From: Deltaproteobacteria bacterium
Lineage (GTDB): Bacteria; UBA10199; DSSB01; JACPFA01
Length of the DNA stretch: 63,467 nt
Assembly: GCA_016183235.1 (NCBI GenBank)
Contig: JACPFA010000008.1
Span: 1 to 63,467 of the forward strand
Direction of reading: 5' to 3'
Shown here: in pieces, positions 7,109 through 61,001 of the stretch
Layout of the letters: the number at the start of each line of letters is the position of its first letter
Numbering within the stretch: the first letter of the stretch is position 1
Notes under the pieces: generated by a model
Told to the model about the DNA's origin: nothing
What the model saw: only the letters and a program-made list of their open reading frames with translations
The model's database searches: none
Position numbers and translations under genes: made by a program

Positions 7109-9366
7109 GGTGGTGGTTAGCTCTGCTTACCATGTTGTTATGGCTACCTTCCGCATGGGCAGCCCCGCGCATTGTCGATATTAAAGTAGAGGGTTTAACG
7201 ACCATTGAAGCCAGCCAAGTCAAAGCCGCCATGGTAAGCAAGGTAGGGGGTGCTTTTGTTCCTGAAAAAGTCAGTGAAGATATTAAGGCCATCTACAAAC
7301 TTGGCTATTTTGGTGATGTGGCGATTGATAAAGTAGCTTCGGGTGGAGGCGTGGTGTTGGTGGTTCGGGTTACCGAAAAACCACCTATTTATGGGGTTAA
7401 AATTGAAGGCGCAAAAAAAATCAGTGAAAAGAAGATCCTTGAGGTTGTCACCATCCGGCCCCTGCTGCCGGTGAGCGAGGCCAAAATTATCGAATCGAAA
7501 GATAAAATCCGCGAGCTTTATGCCGAAGAGGGCTATAGCCGGGCCAGCATTCACACCGAATTGGTCGATACTGCCCAGGGGCAAATTTTAATTTTTAAAA
7601 TTAGTGAAAATGAAAATGTTAAAATCAAAGGCATTCATTTCGAAGGCAATAAGGTTTTTAAAGATCGCAAATTAAAGGGCATGCTAGCGACCAAGAAAAA
7701 GAGTATTTTGTCGTTTCTTACCGGTTCGGGGAAATTAAAAGATGAGTTGCTCGAGCGCGATGTAGCTTTTGTTACCTATCATTATCTCAACAAGGGCTAC
7801 ATGCGAGTGCAAGTGAGCCCGCCCGATATTGAATATTCTGAAAAGAAAAAAGGGTTAGTGCTAACCTTCCACATTCAAGAGGGCGACCCCTACAAAGTAA
7901 GTGAGGTGGGTGTTGCAGGGGATATTCTTACCAGCAAAGAAGAAATGCTTCGCTATCTCAAAGTGAAGCCAGGCCAATTTTATAGTCAGCAAAAAATCGA
8001 AACCGATATGGCAAGATTTCAAGAGCTTTATGGCAACCAAGGTTATGCTTTTGCCGATATTAAGCCACTTACTCGGGTTAACGATGAAGACAAGACCGCA
8101 AGTGTTGAATATACGATCGATCGGGGTAATAAAGTTTTTGTAGAACAAATCACTATCTCAGGTAACGATATCACTCGCGACAAGGTCATTCGTCGTGAAT
8201 TAAAAATCAAAGAAAATAGTCTTTATAATGAAAGTTTAGTGCGTTTATCCAAACGCAAATTGCAACAATTAGGGTATTTTGAAAATGTTGAATTTTCAAC
8301 CCCCCGTGGCAGTTCAGACAATCAGCTCAATCTTAATGTGAACGTAAAAGAGCGTCCCACTGGCACCTTCAGCGTAGGCGCTGGGTTTTCTTCTATCGAA
8401 AATTTTATTTTAACCGCATCGGTTTCTAAACAAAATTTTCTAGGTTTAGGGATTAGTGGGTTTTTATCGGCCGAGCTTTCCAGCCGGCGGCAACAGTTTA
8501 TTTTAAATTTTGCAACCCCCTATTTTTTAGATTCTGATTTTATGTTGTCGGTTAATGCCTTCAAAATGCTTTCAGAGTTTGATGAATTCCGTCGCGATTC
8601 TTTGGGCGGAGAAATCAATTTTGGCCGAAGGCTTTTTGATTTTACTTCTTTTTCTCTGGGGTATCGCATCGAAGATGTTTCGCTTAAAAACTTTTCAATC
8701 ATTGTGCCGGAGTTATTTACACGCAATAAAGATGGTCTAACTTCAAGTGGGGTGTTTACCGTCAACCACGATACGCGCGACAATGCCTTATCTCCTACCA
8801 AAGGGGACTATGAGAGTTTTTCTCTAGAGTATGCGGGTAATGGTTTGGGTGGCGACAATGATTTTATTAGGCTGATTGGAAATGCACGTTACTATTTAAA
8901 CCTGCCTTTAAAAACCGTGTTAAAAGCCAATGTAAGAGTAGGTTGGATCAAATCTCTCAACGATAACCCCATCCCTTTATTTGAAAGGTTTTTTACAGGC
9001 GGGATTAACTCACTAAGAGGTTACGAATTACGAGCCGTTGGGCCAAGAGTGCAGATCCCGGGTTCAGCCACCGGAGCTGATGAAGAATTTGTGTATGGAG
9101 GCAATAAACTCTTTGTTTTTAATTTAGAATATGAATTTCCCATTTATCCATCTGGGGGGTTCAGAGGGGTAGTTTTCTTTGATGCGGGCAATGCTTATTC
9201 AGAACATGAAGACCTAAATCCCCTCAAAGTTCGTACTAACGTGGGAGTAGGTTTCAGATGGGTGTCTCCGTTTGGGCCATTACGCTTTGAATGGGGGTTC
9301 CCTTTAAATCGTAGGCCTGGGGAAGACCGCAGCGTGTTTAATTTTACGATTGGTTCGTCTTTCTAG
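7105..9366 (+). CDS. bamA: Outer membrane protein assembly factor BamA (Omp85)
   Basis: Central component of the BAM complex, which folds beta-barrel proteins into the outer membrane. The 753-residue precursor has a clear signal peptide (about 1-19, ending AWA before AP), then POTRA-type repeats with alternating beta/alpha pattern to about residue 420 (for example GNDITRDKVIRRELKIKE), and a C-terminal Omp85 barrel. Barrel landmarks include FFTGGINSLRGYE (the lid-loop arginine motif RGYE) and the FGPLRFEWGFPL strand. The last residue is Phe, as required for barrel recognition. It overlaps lolD by 4 bp and precedes the periplasmic chaperone gene skp. Confidence 0.95.
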   Translation: MRWWLALLTMLLWLPSAWAAPRIVDIKVEGLTTIEASQVKAAMVSKVGGAFVPEKVSEDIKAIYKLGYFGDVAIDKVASGGGVVLVVRVTEKPPIYGVKIEGAKKISEKKILEVVTIRPLLPVSEAKIIESKDKIRELYAEEGYSRASIHTELVDTAQGQILIFKISENENVKIKGIHFEGNKVFKDRKLKGMLATKKKSILSFLTGSGKLKDELLERDVAFVTYHYLNKGYMRVQVSPPDIEYSEKKKGLVLTFHIQEGDPYKVSEVGVAGDILTSKEEMLRYLKVKPGQFYSQQKIETDMARFQELYGNQGYAFADIKPLTRVNDEDKTASVEYTIDRGNKVFVEQITISGNDITRDKVIRRELKIKENSLYNESLVRLSKRKLQQLGYFENVEFSTPRGSSDNQLNLNVNVKERPTGTFSVGAGFSSIENFILTASVSKQNFLGLGISGFLSAELSSRRQQFILNFATPYFLDSDFMLSVNAFKMLSEFDEFRRDSLGGEINFGRRLFDFTSFSLGYRIEDVSLKNFSIIVPELFTRNKDGLTSSGVFTVNHDTRDNALSPTKGDYESFSLEYAGNGLGGDNDFIRLIGNARYYLNLPLKTVLKANVRVGWIKSLNDNPIPLFERFFTGGINSLRGYELRAVGPRVQIPGSATGADEEFVYGGNKLFVFNLEYEFPIYPSGGFRGVVFFDAGNAYSEHEDLNPLKVRTNVGVGFRWVSPFGPLRFEWGFPLNRRPGEDRSVFNFTIGSSF

Positions 9367-29151: not shown

Positions 29152-30420
29152 TCATCCCCCGGTCTGAAGCCGGGGGATCCATGATGACCCAGGCAAAAGA
29201 ATTTTCCCATTGATCATCGAAAAGTCAACCGATTCACTTTGAAACAGGCTGTGCATTGGGTCTTGGCTGTCATCAACAGAAACACCGATGAGGTCGGCCT
29301 TTTTGCCTGCTTCAAGCGAGCCGATCTCATGTCCCAGTTGTAGGGCCTTAGCGCCATTTTTTGTTGCCATTATAAAAATATCTTCTTCAGAAAGTGCCGG
29401 GTATTTTTCTTTCATACTGCGTAGTACTTCTAACATTGAAAGATTTCGACTACTGGCTAAGCTATCGGTGCCTAAGCCTAGCGTAATATTTCGCTTCAAT
29501 AATTTTTCTAAGGGGAATGGGTCATGATGAAAATATTCATGGCTCAAGGGGCAATGGATAACCGGAATAGACTTCTGAGCCAATAGGGCTAAATCGGCAT
29601 CATTAATATAATTAAGATGAATTGCCATCAGGGGGTGATCTAAAATCCCCAACTCGGCGAGCGTTGCGATGGGGCTTGAATGAGAGGGAGTAGGGTACAC
29701 CCCCCTTTCAACAATAAACTGAAATAATTCACCCGCATTTTTTTCAAAATAGTCGCGCTCTGCGGCGCTTTCCAGCAAATGAATAGAAAGAAGTTTGTGA
29801 TTTTGATCTTTGAAATTTTTTAAAACCAAAGGGTCTAAGGCATGAACAGAATGAGGGGAAGGGTTAAACGTCAAAAGCGAAGTATTTTTTTCATATTCTT
29901 GAGCTAATCGTTGGGTTTGATGGTAAATGCTTTCAGCAATTTCAGGAATAACTCCTAAATTTTCCAAAAAAATTCTACCTCGAAAAGGCATTCGTAAAAG
30001 GGCCTCAAAATCACTGTTAAAGCTGGCGTGATCTCCTAGGGTGGTAACCCCGGCTGCTAAATTTTGCTCAATCCCCCTTTGAATATTGTTGCGCCAAGTT
30101 TTGGTGCTAAAATTATTTTTTGTTTCAAGCAAAACTCGAATCCATTCGGTGAAAGAACCTGGATAGGGCAAAGGTTTTGCTAGGGTTAATTCTAAATGAC
30201 AATGCGCATTCACTAATCCAGGAAAGATGGCAAAATTTTTGAGATGAACTCGATTTTTTTCTTGGTGAGCTTTTGAAGGTAAGCCAGCCGCTTGTCCTGC
30301 ATAGCTGATAGAATCGCCTTGCACCCATACAGCAGCATCTTCAACGATAGCTTGCTGAGGATTCTTTAAAAATTTGGCAAAGACTAAGGAGTTCACAACA
30401 TGCCTTACTAAGGAGGACAT
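29152..30420 (-). CDS. mqnX: Amidohydrolase, probable aminodeoxyfutalosine deaminase
   Basis: 422-residue amidohydrolase-superfamily enzyme. Metal ligands are visible in FPGLVNAHCHLEL (about 67-79), AIHLNYI, IHCPLSHEYF and LGLGTDSLAS. Its position right after mqnC and mqnA points to aminodeoxyfutalosine deaminase of the futalosine pathway; by sequence alone it could be another nucleoside deaminase. The ATG at 30420 lies in the arm of a long inverted repeat and has no ribosome site. A GTG at 30396 has AAGG about 6 bases upstream and may be the true start. The last codons (SSWIPRLQTGG) are supplied by a REP-like palindrome. Confidence 0.8.
   Translation of the reverse strand: MSSLVRHVVNSLVFAKFLKNPQQAIVEDAAVWVQGDSISYAGQAAGLPSKAHQEKNRVHLKNFAIFPGLVNAHCHLELTLAKPLPYPGSFTEWIRVLLETKNNFSTKTWRNNIQRGIEQNLAAGVTTLGDHASFNSDFEALLRMPFRGRIFLENLGVIPEIAESIYHQTQRLAQEYEKNTSLLTFNPSPHSVHALDPLVLKNFKDQNHKLLSIHLLESAAERDYFEKNAGELFQFIVERGVYPTPSHSSPIATLAELGILDHPLMAIHLNYINDADLALLAQKSIPVIHCPLSHEYFHHDPFPLEKLLKRNITLGLGTDSLASSRNLSMLEVLRSMKEKYPALSEEDIFIMATKNGAKALQLGHEIGSLEAGKKADLIGVSVDDSQDPMHSLFQSESVDFSMINGKILLPGSSWIPRLQTGG
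29154..29178. repeat. REP-like palindrome forming the 3' end of mqnX
   Basis: Arms ATCCCCCGG and CCGGGGGAT flank a 7-bp loop. The element covers the last codons of mqnX (WIPRLQTGG) and lies between convergent genes, so it may also end transcription. Similar G/C-rich palindromes are known as dispersed repeats that extend reading frames in some bacteria. Confidence 0.65.
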
Positions 30421-30584
30421 AGTCTACTGCACATATGACACAGGATCATGAGCCGAGACAAGGAAGATGAGCAAAAAATTTGGAGGCGTAGCCTAAGCTA
30501 CGTCGATGAATTTTTTGTGAAATCTGACGCAGTCGTAGGCCATGAGCCGAAGTCAGATGTGTAGTAGACTATGTCCTCCTTAGT
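30407..30584. repeat. Long inverted repeat between mqnC and mqnX
   Basis: Outer arms at 30407-30439 and 30552-30584 pair over 33 bp with two mismatches. The left arm contains the annotated mqnX start and the right arm the mqnC stop. The core (30448-30545) holds TGAGCCGAGACAAGG, a second hairpin (AAAAAATT...CGTAGC/GCTACG...AATTTTTT) and GTGAAATCTGACGCAGTCG. The same core recurs inverted at 47749-47855, but the outer arms do not. Confidence 0.8.
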
Positions 30585-34897: not shown

Positions 34898-34957
34898 GCG
34901 AGTTTCTACTTGAGGCTAAGAGTAGGGTCAAGGCGTAACTCTCATCAGAGTCTTGAT

Positions 34958-35195
34958 GTAATGCCTCAGTTTTAGGGGCCTTAGCTTTCTGAAACCCTTT
35001 GTGCGAGAGCGACGAGTCATGAGCGCTTAAAAAACATATGGTTTGTAGAAGCCTGTCCTGAGCCTTAGCGAAGGATCTCCTACGAACAAGGAGATCCCTC
35101 GTAAAACCTCGGGACAAGCTTCTAAACAAACGTGCGAATACGAGGAGCGGAGCACGGGTTGAGGAAAGCTAAGGCCCCTAAAACTGAGGCATTAC
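34958..35195. repeat. Long inverted repeat between divergent genes
   Basis: Perfect 32-bp outer arms at 34958-34989 and 35164-35195. Inside is a core shared with 44314-44519: GAAACCCTTTG, GCGAGAGCGACGAGTCATG, GCGCTTAAAAA, then, on the other side, ATACGAGGAGCGGAGC and GGGTTGAGGAAAGCT. This copy adds an apical hairpin (about 35050-35122) containing GGATCTCC and GGAGATCC. The outer arms are not shared with any other copy. It accounts for most of the 340-bp gap before leuB; nothing else was seen there. Confidence 0.85.
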
Positions 35196-35237
35196 TCCTT
35201 GATAAAATCAACAATTGATGATTTACAAGGCGTTCAT

Positions 35238-43943: not shown

Positions 43944-44312
43944 GTGAAACATATGGACCTAAAAATTTTAAATGTGGATGACCTAGAAGATTCAAGTGAA
44001 CTTGAGCAAGAAACCGTAGCCTCGGTTCCAGCTACAAACCCTTGCAAAGAAATGGCCCAAGAATCGCAAGGCACTTTGTCTTGCGGTGGAGTTTATGTGC
44101 CTCGGGCCTTAGAGCCATCGCCTTTTCAACAAAAATACGGTGCACTTTATTTACCCAATGCTCGCCAACAAGTGATCATGCTAAAAAATACCAAACCCAT
44201 TAGCATTAGCAATCTGCGTGGCCCTTACTTAGAAGCGGAAGAAACAGTTGAACGTTTCGTCGAAGAGGGCAATCCGGTTTTAAAGAAATTCTTTCGCAGC
44301 GATTGTAACTAA
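43944..44312 (+). CDS. Hypothetical small acidic protein
   Basis: 122 residues from a GTG at 43944; an ATG at 43953 is also possible. GGGGG lies a few bases upstream. The N-terminal half is acidic (DLEDSSELEQETVASVPATN); the middle has GVYVPRALEPSPFQQKYGALY. No signal peptide and no recognised domain. A 260-bp gap precedes it, containing ATCTAA/TTAGAT inverted repeats at about 43837 and AT-rich sequence but no other gene. It is convergent with ilvE across a long inverted repeat. It could be a lineage-specific gene. Confidence 0.45.
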   Translation: MKHMDLKILNVDDLEDSSELEQETVASVPATNPCKEMAQESQGTLSCGGVYVPRALEPSPFQQKYGALYLPNARQQVIMLKNTKPISISNLRGPYLEAEETVERFVEEGNPVLKKFFRSDCN

Positions 44313-44313
44313 G

Positions 44314-44519
44314 TCTAATTAACCCAATTCACCCAAGCTTTACGAAACCCTTTGCGCGAGAGCGACGAGTCATGAGCGCTTAAAAAGCGTATGGTTTGTT
44401 GAAGTTAGGGTATGACCGGAGGGAATACACTAACTTCATACAAACCAACGTTTTTTAAGCGCGAATACGAGGAGCGGAGCGCGGGTTGAGGAAAGCTTGG
44501 GTGAATTGGGTTAATTAGA
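44314..44519. repeat. Long inverted repeat between convergent genes
   Basis: Perfect 28-bp outer arms at 44314-44341 and 44492-44519; the right arm contains the ilvE stop codon. Inside, the left half (GAAACCCTTTG, GCGACGAGTCATG, GCGCTTAAAAA) and right half (GCGCGAATACGAGGAGCGG, GGGTTGAGG) also pair imperfectly, so the whole 206 bp is one long palindrome. The core is shared with 34958-35195; the outer arms are unique. It could end transcription from both sides. Confidence 0.85.
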
Positions 44520-45465
44520 CGACTTCCTGCCATTCGGGGAATGGTGTTGCAGCCCCCTGACTTGCTTCTTTAAATAAAGCCTGAACTTTTTTCGTAATAG
44601 TGCCAGGGTTCCCACTCCCAATCATACGATCATCTAATTCACGAATAGGCGTGATCTCTGCGGCGGTGCCGGTTACAAAGATTTCATCAGCGATATAAAG
44701 TTCATCGCGAGTAAGATTCGTTTCAATCACTTGAATTTTTTCTCGCTTGAGCAATTGAATGACCGAATCACGCGTGATGCCTTCTAGTGCGCTAGTAATG
44801 GGGGGAGTTTTGACAATCCCTTTTCTAACCGAGAAGAGATTTTCACCACTGCACTCGCTTACATTGCCTTGCGTATCGAGCATGATGGTCTCTTCATAGC
44901 CAGCCAGCATGGCTTCGCGTTTGGCTAAGATGGAGTTGATATAATTACCCACCGCTTTACTTTTGGTCATGGTGACATTCACATGATGGCGGGTAAAACT
45001 CGAAACTTTAGCGCGAATCCCATTTTTAACACCTTCATCGCCCAAATAAGTCCCCCATTCCCAAGCGATAATGGCCACGCGAATGGGATTATGCACCGCA
45101 TGTAGGCCCATGGCCCCATCGCCCAAGAAAACTAAAGGTCTTAAGTAACCATGTTTGAGTTTATTAACTCGGAAAATTTCTTTACAGGCTTCGATCACTT
45201 CTTCTTTAGAAAAGGGGATTTTAATTAAGAGGATATGGGCAGAGTCATAAAGCCGGTCAATGTGTTCACGCAAGCGAAAGATCACACTTTTGCCGTCTGG
45301 CCGCTGATAGCAGCGGATGCCCTCAAAAACGCCCAAGCCATAATGCAAGGTGTGAGTGAGCACATGAACTTTGGCTTCATCCCAGGGCACCATCTTGCCA
45401 TCGAGCCATATTTTATCGACTTTAGGGACACCGCCTACTTTTTCTTTTTGAGTCATTTGAGCCAT
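44515..45465 (-). CDS. ilvE: Branched-chain amino acid aminotransferase
   Basis: PLP-dependent class IV aminotransferase for the last step of Ile, Leu and Val synthesis. The 316 residues show KIWLDGKMVPWDEAKVHVLT, HYGLGVFEGIRCY, TMTKSKAVGNYINSILAKRE (the PLP lysine region), GNVSECSGENLF and the end EIFVTGTAAEITPIRELDDR. Length is normal. It overlaps mtnA by 13 bp, and its stop codon falls in the arm of a long inverted repeat. Confidence 0.93.
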   Translation of the reverse strand: MAQMTQKEKVGGVPKVDKIWLDGKMVPWDEAKVHVLTHTLHYGLGVFEGIRCYQRPDGKSVIFRLREHIDRLYDSAHILLIKIPFSKEEVIEACKEIFRVNKLKHGYLRPLVFLGDGAMGLHAVHNPIRVAIIAWEWGTYLGDEGVKNGIRAKVSSFTRHHVNVTMTKSKAVGNYINSILAKREAMLAGYEETIMLDTQGNVSECSGENLFSVRKGIVKTPPITSALEGITRDSVIQLLKREKIQVIETNLTRDELYIADEIFVTGTAAEITPIRELDDRMIGSGNPGTITKKVQALFKEASQGAATPFPEWQEVV

Positions 45466-59505: not shown

Positions 59506-60760
59506 AATCTTTCAAGCTGTCAAAGGCATGCCCGATATAATTGGAACACAGGCTCAAGCGTGGAGAAGGGTTGAGCAAATGGCCTTTGCCTTATTTGCGA
59601 AGGCGCACTTTTTGGAAATGCGTACTCCGGTTTTAGAAGACTTGCATTTGTTTGAGCGAGGCATTGGTACTTCTACGGATATTGTAGAGAAAGAAATGTA
59701 TACCTTAGTTGATCGCAATGAAAGGGCGCTGGCTTTAAGGCCAGAAGGCACAGCCCCCATTGTGCGGGCCTATTTAGAACATTTTAGTAAGCGAGAGGGG
59801 TCTGCTGAAAAACGTTTGTGTTATTTTGGGCCCATGTTTCGCTATGAGCGTCCGCAAAAAGGGCGGTTTCGCCAATTCTATCAATTTGGTGCTGAGATAT
59901 TGGGGGTCGATGATCCAACCCTTGATGCCGAACTTATTCAACTCATTGTGCAACTTTTGGAAAAGCTAGAGGTGAGAGATTATCAGCTTTTGATCAACTC
60001 ACTGGGCACACCAGAAGTTAGGCAAAAGTATAAAAGCAAACTTCTAAACTATCTCGATCAAGTCGAATCGCAATTATGTGAAAAATGTCAGAACCGGAAA
60101 ATAAAAAATCCTTTGCGAGTTTTGGATTGTAAAACTCAAAGCTGTATTGATTTATTGAAACAAGCACCTAGCTTGTTAGACGATCTCGACGATATTTCAA
60201 AATCTCATTTCGATCGCTTGCAAAATTATTTATCGATTGCGGGGATTCCTTGTCAAGTGAATCCACAATTGGTGCGTGGGCTTGATTATTATGATAAAAC
60301 AGCCTTTGAATTTACCTCAACCAAATTAGGCGCTCAAAATGCCTTTGCCGGCGGGGGGCGCTATAATAACTTAGTGCAAGAGCTAGGGGGGCCGGTCATT
60401 CCTGCGGTAGGGTTTGCTTTAGGGATGGAACGTTTAATGGATCTCGTGGGGCAAAATGTTTTTCCCCAAAAACCTAATTTACTTATATTGATTGCCTTGG
60501 GGGAAGAGGCCAATCAGTTTTTTTTCAAACATTTTTGTGAATTACGCAATGAAGTGAAACTTTCGGTGATGTTAGAAGGTTCTGAGAGATCGTTAAAAGC
60601 AAAACTTAAAATAGCCGACCGGCAAGAGGCTCGCTACGTTCTCATTTTAGGCGAACAAGAATTACAAGCAGGCCTGATGTTATTAAAAGATATGCAAGCC
60701 GGTACCCAACAAGAGTTGTCGCTCCAAAATTGGATCAACCAAATTAAGTTGTTAAATTGA
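59498..60760 (+). CDS. hisS: Histidyl-tRNA synthetase
   Basis: Class II synthetase for tRNA-His. 420 residues with motif 1 (FLEMRTPVLEDLHLFERGIG), motif 2 (FGPMFRYERPQKGRFRQFYQ), the His-specific LVRGLDYYDKTAFEFT and motif 3 (PAVGFALGMERLMDL), followed by an anticodon-binding domain. Length is normal. Its stop codon (TGA at 60758-60760) lies inside the left arm of a perfect long inverted repeat. Confidence 0.96.
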   Translation: MSKIFQAVKGMPDIIGTQAQAWRRVEQMAFALFAKAHFLEMRTPVLEDLHLFERGIGTSTDIVEKEMYTLVDRNERALALRPEGTAPIVRAYLEHFSKREGSAEKRLCYFGPMFRYERPQKGRFRQFYQFGAEILGVDDPTLDAELIQLIVQLLEKLEVRDYQLLINSLGTPEVRQKYKSKLLNYLDQVESQLCEKCQNRKIKNPLRVLDCKTQSCIDLLKQAPSLLDDLDDISKSHFDRLQNYLSIAGIPCQVNPQLVRGLDYYDKTAFEFTSTKLGAQNAFAGGGRYNNLVQELGGPVIPAVGFALGMERLMDLVGQNVFPQKPNLLILIALGEEANQFFFKHFCELRNEVKLSVMLEGSERSLKAKLKIADRQEARYVLILGEQELQAGLMLLKDMQAGTQQELSLQNWINQIKLLN

Positions 60761-61001
60761 AATCTCTAAAAATTGCGAACCGAGATGCCCTTGTTGGCAA
60801 ACGTTGCGCAGGAGAGAGCCCGCATGAAGGCTGTATAAATGCTGTTATTGCGAGCCCAACGGGCGCGGCAATCCCATCGCTTAAACAGAAGAGATTGTTT
60901 CACCCTGCTGGGTTCGCAATGACAGATGAGCATCGCAGGGCGAACGGTGCGCGTTTGCCAACAAGGGCATCTCGGTTCGCAATTTTTAGAGATTTCAATT
61001 T
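60754..61001. repeat. Long inverted repeat with perfect 50-bp arms
   Basis: Arms at 60754-60803 and 60952-61001 are perfect inverted copies over 50 bp. The stop codons of both convergent genes, hisS and the beta-helix gene, lie in the outer ends of the arms. The centre holds a pair of inverted REP-like repeats (60843-60875 and 60891-60924, TGTTATTGCGAG and CGCAATGACA). The structure is large enough to end transcription from both sides. Confidence 0.9.

Follow-up and report, generated by a model that had tools for sequence, protein, structure and literature searches.

Inverted-repeat arms private to single loci around dispersed hairpin cores in a deltaproteobacterial genome: probable copies of local gene-end flanks

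The window analyzed here is a 63,467-nucleotide stretch (contig JACPFA010000008.1, positions 1–63,467, forward strand) of a 2.61-Mb deltaproteobacterial genome assembled in 51 contigs, and it holds two hairpin elements built on a common core, core 1. In the first, a left arm (34958–34989, plus strand) and a right arm (35164–35195, minus strand) form a perfect inverted repeat (32/32) with 174 bp between the arms. The interval (34990–35163, plus strand) is a core 1 copy whose middle is replaced by another hairpin repeat (35046–35124), and the flanks, GTCTTGAT on the left (34950–34957) and TCCTTGAT on the right (35196–35203), match at six of eight positions and are a likely target-site duplication. 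The left arm of the second element (44313–44341, plus strand) follows immediately on the stop of an open reading frame (ORF; 43944–44312), and its right arm (44492–44520, minus strand) takes in the final codon and stop (GTC TAA) of an ilvE-like gene (44515–45465). These arms are complementary at 29/29 positions, lie 150 bp apart and enclose a core 1 copy (44342–44491, plus strand) with 96% identity to L002, a copy with shared arms. Core 1 spans GAAACCC to GGGTT in both elements, which agree at 93% over 61 nt on the left and 97% over 37 nt on the right. Perfect outer inverted repeats around a common core, as described for both loci in the first-pass annotation, were thus borne out.

Shuffled sequence contained no such inverted repeats, and about 2 × 10−8 perfect 28-bp pairs at such spacing are expected in the genome. 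Both elements folded far better than their shuffles (z = −13.8 and −17.9), each as one long stem when folded as DNA; in the 44313 element a conserved internal loop with unequal sides, GAGAGCGACGAGTCATGA facing GAATACGAGGAGCGGAGC, breaks the stem, which then carries on as an imperfect inner stem. An Rfam scan of the window returned no RNA family at gathering score. A third element (60754–61001, unstranded), built on core 4 with arms complementary at 50/50 positions, lies between hisS (ending at 60760) and a convergent gene (ending at 60995), both of which end AAT TGA inside the arms. A core 5 element (30407–30584) overlaps the ends of both adjacent minus-strand ORFs by 5–14 bp, and its arms differ among copies, with paired changes. 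Nested hairpins were seen as well, as TGTCATTGCGAG... and CCTGTCCTGAG... repeats in core loops (35046–35124 and 60804–60951 in the window, and many loci of the larger sample described below).

About 24 copies of core 1 were found in the genome, and comparison of their flanks separated them into two classes. Core 1 was absent from all 59–60 relatives searched; one match in a genome collection and two viral matches proved to be chance 20-base matches in unrelated sequence. Class A, with about 14 of the copies (three cut at one end), includes the 34958 element and carries the arm GTAATGCCTCAGTTTTAGGGG..TTAGCTTTCC, which recurs nearly identical around about 13 core copies besides 34958. The outer 17–19 bp of these arms also terminate elements with unrelated interiors, and the 8-bp flanks of 21 such elements matched at a mean of 6.05 of 8 positions, compared with 2.39 after shuffling (maximum 3.67 in 2,000 shuffles). 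Shared terminal inverted repeats and a target-site duplication were thus both found at 34958 and in class A. By these sequence features the 34958 element is a MITE-type insertion that brought its own arms, and class A would have needed a transposase to move, which we infer. IS66 was considered as the source of the GTAATGCC elements on account of their GTAA ends and 8-bp duplications, and was set aside when no IS66-type transposase was found in the genome. One intact Y1 transposase match (C16:12320–12646) and one broken match (C2:3406–3534) are present; this enzyme may be what mobilizes the TGTCATTGCGAG repeats, and as a mover of the core hairpins it was rejected, nothing tying the intact gene to the cores.

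Class B comprises the other 10 of the approximately 24 copies (44313, L007, L010, L011, L012, L014, L015, L016, L017 and C33:7423), whose arms resemble neither class A nor, except for L014 and L017, one another. In a genome-wide search with nine arms (eight class B loci and the window element at 60754; the C33:7423 arm lay outside the query), each found its own locus only, plus the related thiC-linked L014/L017 pair, with a best further match at E = 0.06. We call such arms private, meaning outside any shared-arm family. Private elements showed no target-site duplication, with a mean of 2.2 of 8 flank matches over 23 elements and 1 of 8 at 44313, where neither shared terminal repeats nor a duplication was found. 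The point at which the core gives way to the right arm also differs among copies: it follows GGGTT in L012 and L015 and, elsewhere, GGGTTGA to GGGTTGAGGAAAGCT. A tree of the cores mixes private with shared-arm copies and requires at least four changes of arm type, with mostly weak branch support. The first-pass annotation had taken both loci to have private arms formed after arrival. For 34958 this fails: its arms are a fixed set of dispersed terminal repeats and, with the flanks GTCTTGAT and TCCTTGAT, mark a transposon carrying its own arms. For 44313 the private assignment stands, its arms belonging to no such set and occurring nowhere else in the 51 contigs. The genome-wide comparison that it had proposed, asking for a different palindrome around each copy, divided accordingly, with 10 copies privately armed (L014 and L017 alike) and about 14 sharing one arm.

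Elements of this kind were then surveyed in an 861-kb sample consisting of the window and the stretches L094–L133. With arm length set at 24 bp or more and spacing at 80–260 bp, the sample yielded 75 inverted repeats (8.7 per 100 kb), and the same arm and spacing criteria gave none in 288 kb from two relatives. Clustering of interiors, followed by reading, resolved several core families, with one large cluster joined by nested repeats and split by eye. Shared arms are combinatorial, the GTAATGCC, GTCTTTTCGA and TAAAAAG arms each occurring with more than one core. Private arms surround several cores, in 22 elements of the sample. This list was made by eye after the gene positions had been seen, and the counts drawn from it, those on gene ends below included, carry that bias; the genome-wide search covered nine private arms. 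Ten of these 22 arm pairs are perfect; together they have 23 mismatches in 897 positions, and their edges are abrupt. TAAAAAG-armed and GTCTTTT-armed elements were repeatedly found in tandem about 25 bp apart (L105, L116, L127, L131, L132 and L133; for example L127:13068–13511), and in many cases the next ORF lies about 100 bp away; the two may belong to a single larger composite element.

Private elements are closely associated with gene ends. Where a gene points at the element, its stop codon lies at most 12 bp from the arm end in 19 of 20 private elements and in 14 of 43 other elements. With genes called simply as long ORFs, private elements occupied 11 of the 94 gene pairs that converge, 6 of the 440 in tandem and 1 of the 69 that diverge, and hisS, ilvE, thiC, carA, nadB, pyrE and clpA are among the adjoining genes. 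In three convergent pairs (60754, L107:16378 and L110:7423), the two genes have an identical final codon and stop, which lie within the arm. Median gene gaps are 24.5 bp for convergent and 22 bp for tandem pairs. The proximity of arm ends to stop codons is partly explained by these short gaps and by the loss of any copying event that destroyed a gene end.

Two sets of loci are informative as to how private arms were added. The short core 6 is the clearest example: five copies stop at the family end GTCTT..., and in these the two flanks differ immediately. Two further copies (L133:15278 and L117:4104) reach the normal end and then continue with private mirror sequence, 27 bp in the one and 26 bp in the other, that the five lack. 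Their inner stems retain the old mismatches of the family; therefore, new sequence was added only outside the existing hairpin. The second set is a pair of elements at thiC (L116:7651–7882 and 8748–9003), of which one follows thiC itself and the other a short duplicated stretch of its end. The arms are complementary at 43/43 positions in each, and the two copies differ at six arm positions, every one mirrored in both arms. Between the two cores there are 3 differences in 131 positions, and their orientation relative to the gene is inverted. Judged from these sequences, the pair may have arisen by homogenization of the arms and flipping of the core, or by two insertions that each copied its own diverged flank; either route would require arm-to-arm copying. 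The surrounding region (L116:7620–9003, equal to C34:47620–49003) carries about 70 bp, made up of the thiC 3′ end and a palindrome arm, twice, flanking a pair of genes with matches to Gp49-like PF05973 and HTH_3 PF01381; these look like a toxin–antitoxin pair inserted at the thiC end.

The reading that we favor, with a probability of roughly 0.6, is that private arms are local flank copied across the core hairpin by replication template switching, the other copies moving as non-autonomous transposons. The genome holds several families of short hairpin cores; some copies, 34958–35195 among them, lie inside non-autonomous transposons that have shared terminal repeats, and others, such as 44313–44520, lack those ends. 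At the latter, a polymerase replicating a hairpin would switch from the template to its own nascent strand, and the switched strand would be held by the complementary core ends (GAAACCC...GGGTT). About 25–45 nt of the flank on one side would then be copied outward from the core before the polymerase returned to the normal template, so that a conserved imperfect core ends up between sharply bounded, perfectly inverted copies of the local flank. Polymerase activity on its own nascent strand makes inverted repeats more perfect in Escherichia coli quasipalindromes (PMC7202029), the same self-templating switch produces RNA hairpins (PMC8794818), and arm homogenization and spacer inversion are the two reported outcomes of switching at yeast inverted repeats (PMC8604942). 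The private-arm class has the long, near-perfect inverted copies with abrupt edges that template switching leaves; variable switch points would also give core–arm junctions that vary from copy to copy, as they do here. Arm homogenization and spacer inversion are both seen in the thiC pair, although two independent insertions into diverged flanks would produce an identical picture. That a core makes a palindrome from its local flank, the rule put forward in the first-pass annotation, is accordingly the best-supported account of 44313, nine other core 1 copies and several other cores, and does not apply to 34958.

We infer the switching event, the direction of copying and the presence of the flank before the core arrived. 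No relative with an empty site was found among the 59–60 relatives or in the genome-collection search, and the event itself was therefore not seen. At the element adjacent to carA, left-to-right copying is suggested by the perfected inner stem, so that the last carA codons would be the copy. Terminal codons of carA and comparable genes had been considered as proof of direction; this was dropped, since C-termini vary and carA speaks for the opposite direction. The match between stop codons and arm ends (19 of 20) is not fully predicted by template switching, and rejoining at the complementary stop codons of convergent genes may add to it. Template switching also gives no account of how a core reaches a new site without terminal repeats. 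A bolder proposal, possible but on balance doubtful, is that the core is mobile DNA that uses no transposase at private sites: caught by a switching polymerase at a gene 3′ end, it would copy the spacer up to the stop codon as its own terminal repeats and rejoin at the stop of the facing gene.

Other origins of the private arms were weighed against the same observations. Whole palindromes could have arrived at gene ends as complete units with their arms; each set of private arms would then be all that survives of an element pool that was diverse or old, and arm-to-arm correction would have kept it perfect. Shared-arm elements do often sit at stop codons (the 14 of 43 above), gaps with medians of 22–25 bp in tandem and convergent pairs would place any unit near a stop, and arms and cores are already combinatorial. 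Unit insertion is nevertheless unlikely, as the private arm ends show no duplication, the tested arms have no second copy, the cores are nearly identical to shared-arm copies, and in core 6 normal family ends are followed by private mirror sequence. The preference of private elements for convergent over tandem pairs, together with the terminator-like appearance of some arms (L007: ATAAAAAAATAGC...GCTATTTTTTTAT), would suit a history in which cores entered the loops of palindromes already in place, for instance bidirectional terminators separating convergent genes. However, 78 convergent gaps without an element contained only two hairpins scoring at least 20, both of them dispersed repeats, and the next best scored 14. 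The 28–50-bp stems are longer than such naked sites show, and the core ends bear no direct duplication. With element-free gaps nearly devoid of strong hairpins, the private arms are unlikely to come from ready-made palindromes, and we hold this origin to be quite improbable.

Selection for a bidirectional terminator or an RNA end-protecting hairpin, with paired substitutions making the arms complementary, would fit a position between convergent stops. It would also leave stepwise intermediates, whereas closely related cores have dissimilar arms, edges are abrupt and inner mismatches stay uncorrected. Near-identical cores with dissimilar arms and sharp similarity edges indicate that the private arms did not arise by slow drift, and this explanation has little to recommend it. 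An assembly or amplification artefact generating fold-back sequence is a concern in a 51-contig assembly judged from its assembled sequence; yet the ends of both flanking genes are undamaged, the families agree with one another, as do the duplications, and sequence continues correctly for hundreds of bases on both sides, which makes an artefact very hard to credit. A reverse-transcription model was rejected, there being no RVT_1 domain in the genome.

The repair background may bear on template switching. SbcD gave no match above cut-off in the genome or in 14 relatives, the exonuclease I C-terminal domain was not found in any of these 15 genomes, and exonuclease VII is present. In E. coli lacking SbcCD and RecA, an interrupted palindrome gives inverted duplications (PMC3315005). 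Absence of SbcD and exonuclease I would be expected to let hairpins be tolerated; it is permissive at most, because relatives that also lack both show no elements in 288 kb.

If template switching is correct, replication slips at repeat hairpins supply long, perfect gene-end stems repeatedly in one genome, the variable ends of bacterial hairpin repeats are accounted for, and palindromes at gene ends need not await slow paired substitution. In that case the genome would be a natural test bed, every private arm preserving where one switching event began and where it returned. Terminal inverted repeats alone are no proof that an element carried them in.

The first-pass annotation knew of no named family with this rule; hairpin formation by template switching is a described precedent, and the nearest named elements are the QMITEs of Coxiella burnetii (PMC5896051). 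QMITE1 and QMITE2 are hairpin non-autonomous repeats at gene 3′ ends with overlaps of a few bases, as here. Full-size QMITE2, with approximately 24-nt terminal repeats and 7–11-nt direct repeats, resembles the shared-arm class, and QMITE1 is described with variable ends and a conserved core, as in the private-arm copies. Flank-copied arms are not reported for QMITEs in the sections consulted, and here several cores share arm sets. Among bacterial MITEs more broadly, 34958 and the shared-arm copies are alike in having terminal inverted repeats, short duplications and no coding capacity, whereas 44313 and the private-arm copies have neither shared ends nor duplications. The inverted duplications of E. 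coli lacking SbcCD and RecA likewise place an inverted flank copy at an interrupted palindrome, but on a chromosome scale, whereas here copying is confined to tens of bases (PMC3315005). In published template-switch hairpins (PMC8794818, PMC7202029 and PMC8604942), one event makes a perfect reverse-complement stem, as proposed here, and arm homogenization and loop inversion occur, for which the thiC pair is a candidate case. The examples consulted have short loops and scattered loci, whereas arms of 28–50 bp here lie repeatedly around dispersed hairpin cores with spacers of mostly about 100–250 bp. The best explanation is a known mechanism, template switching, operating here at an unusual scale.
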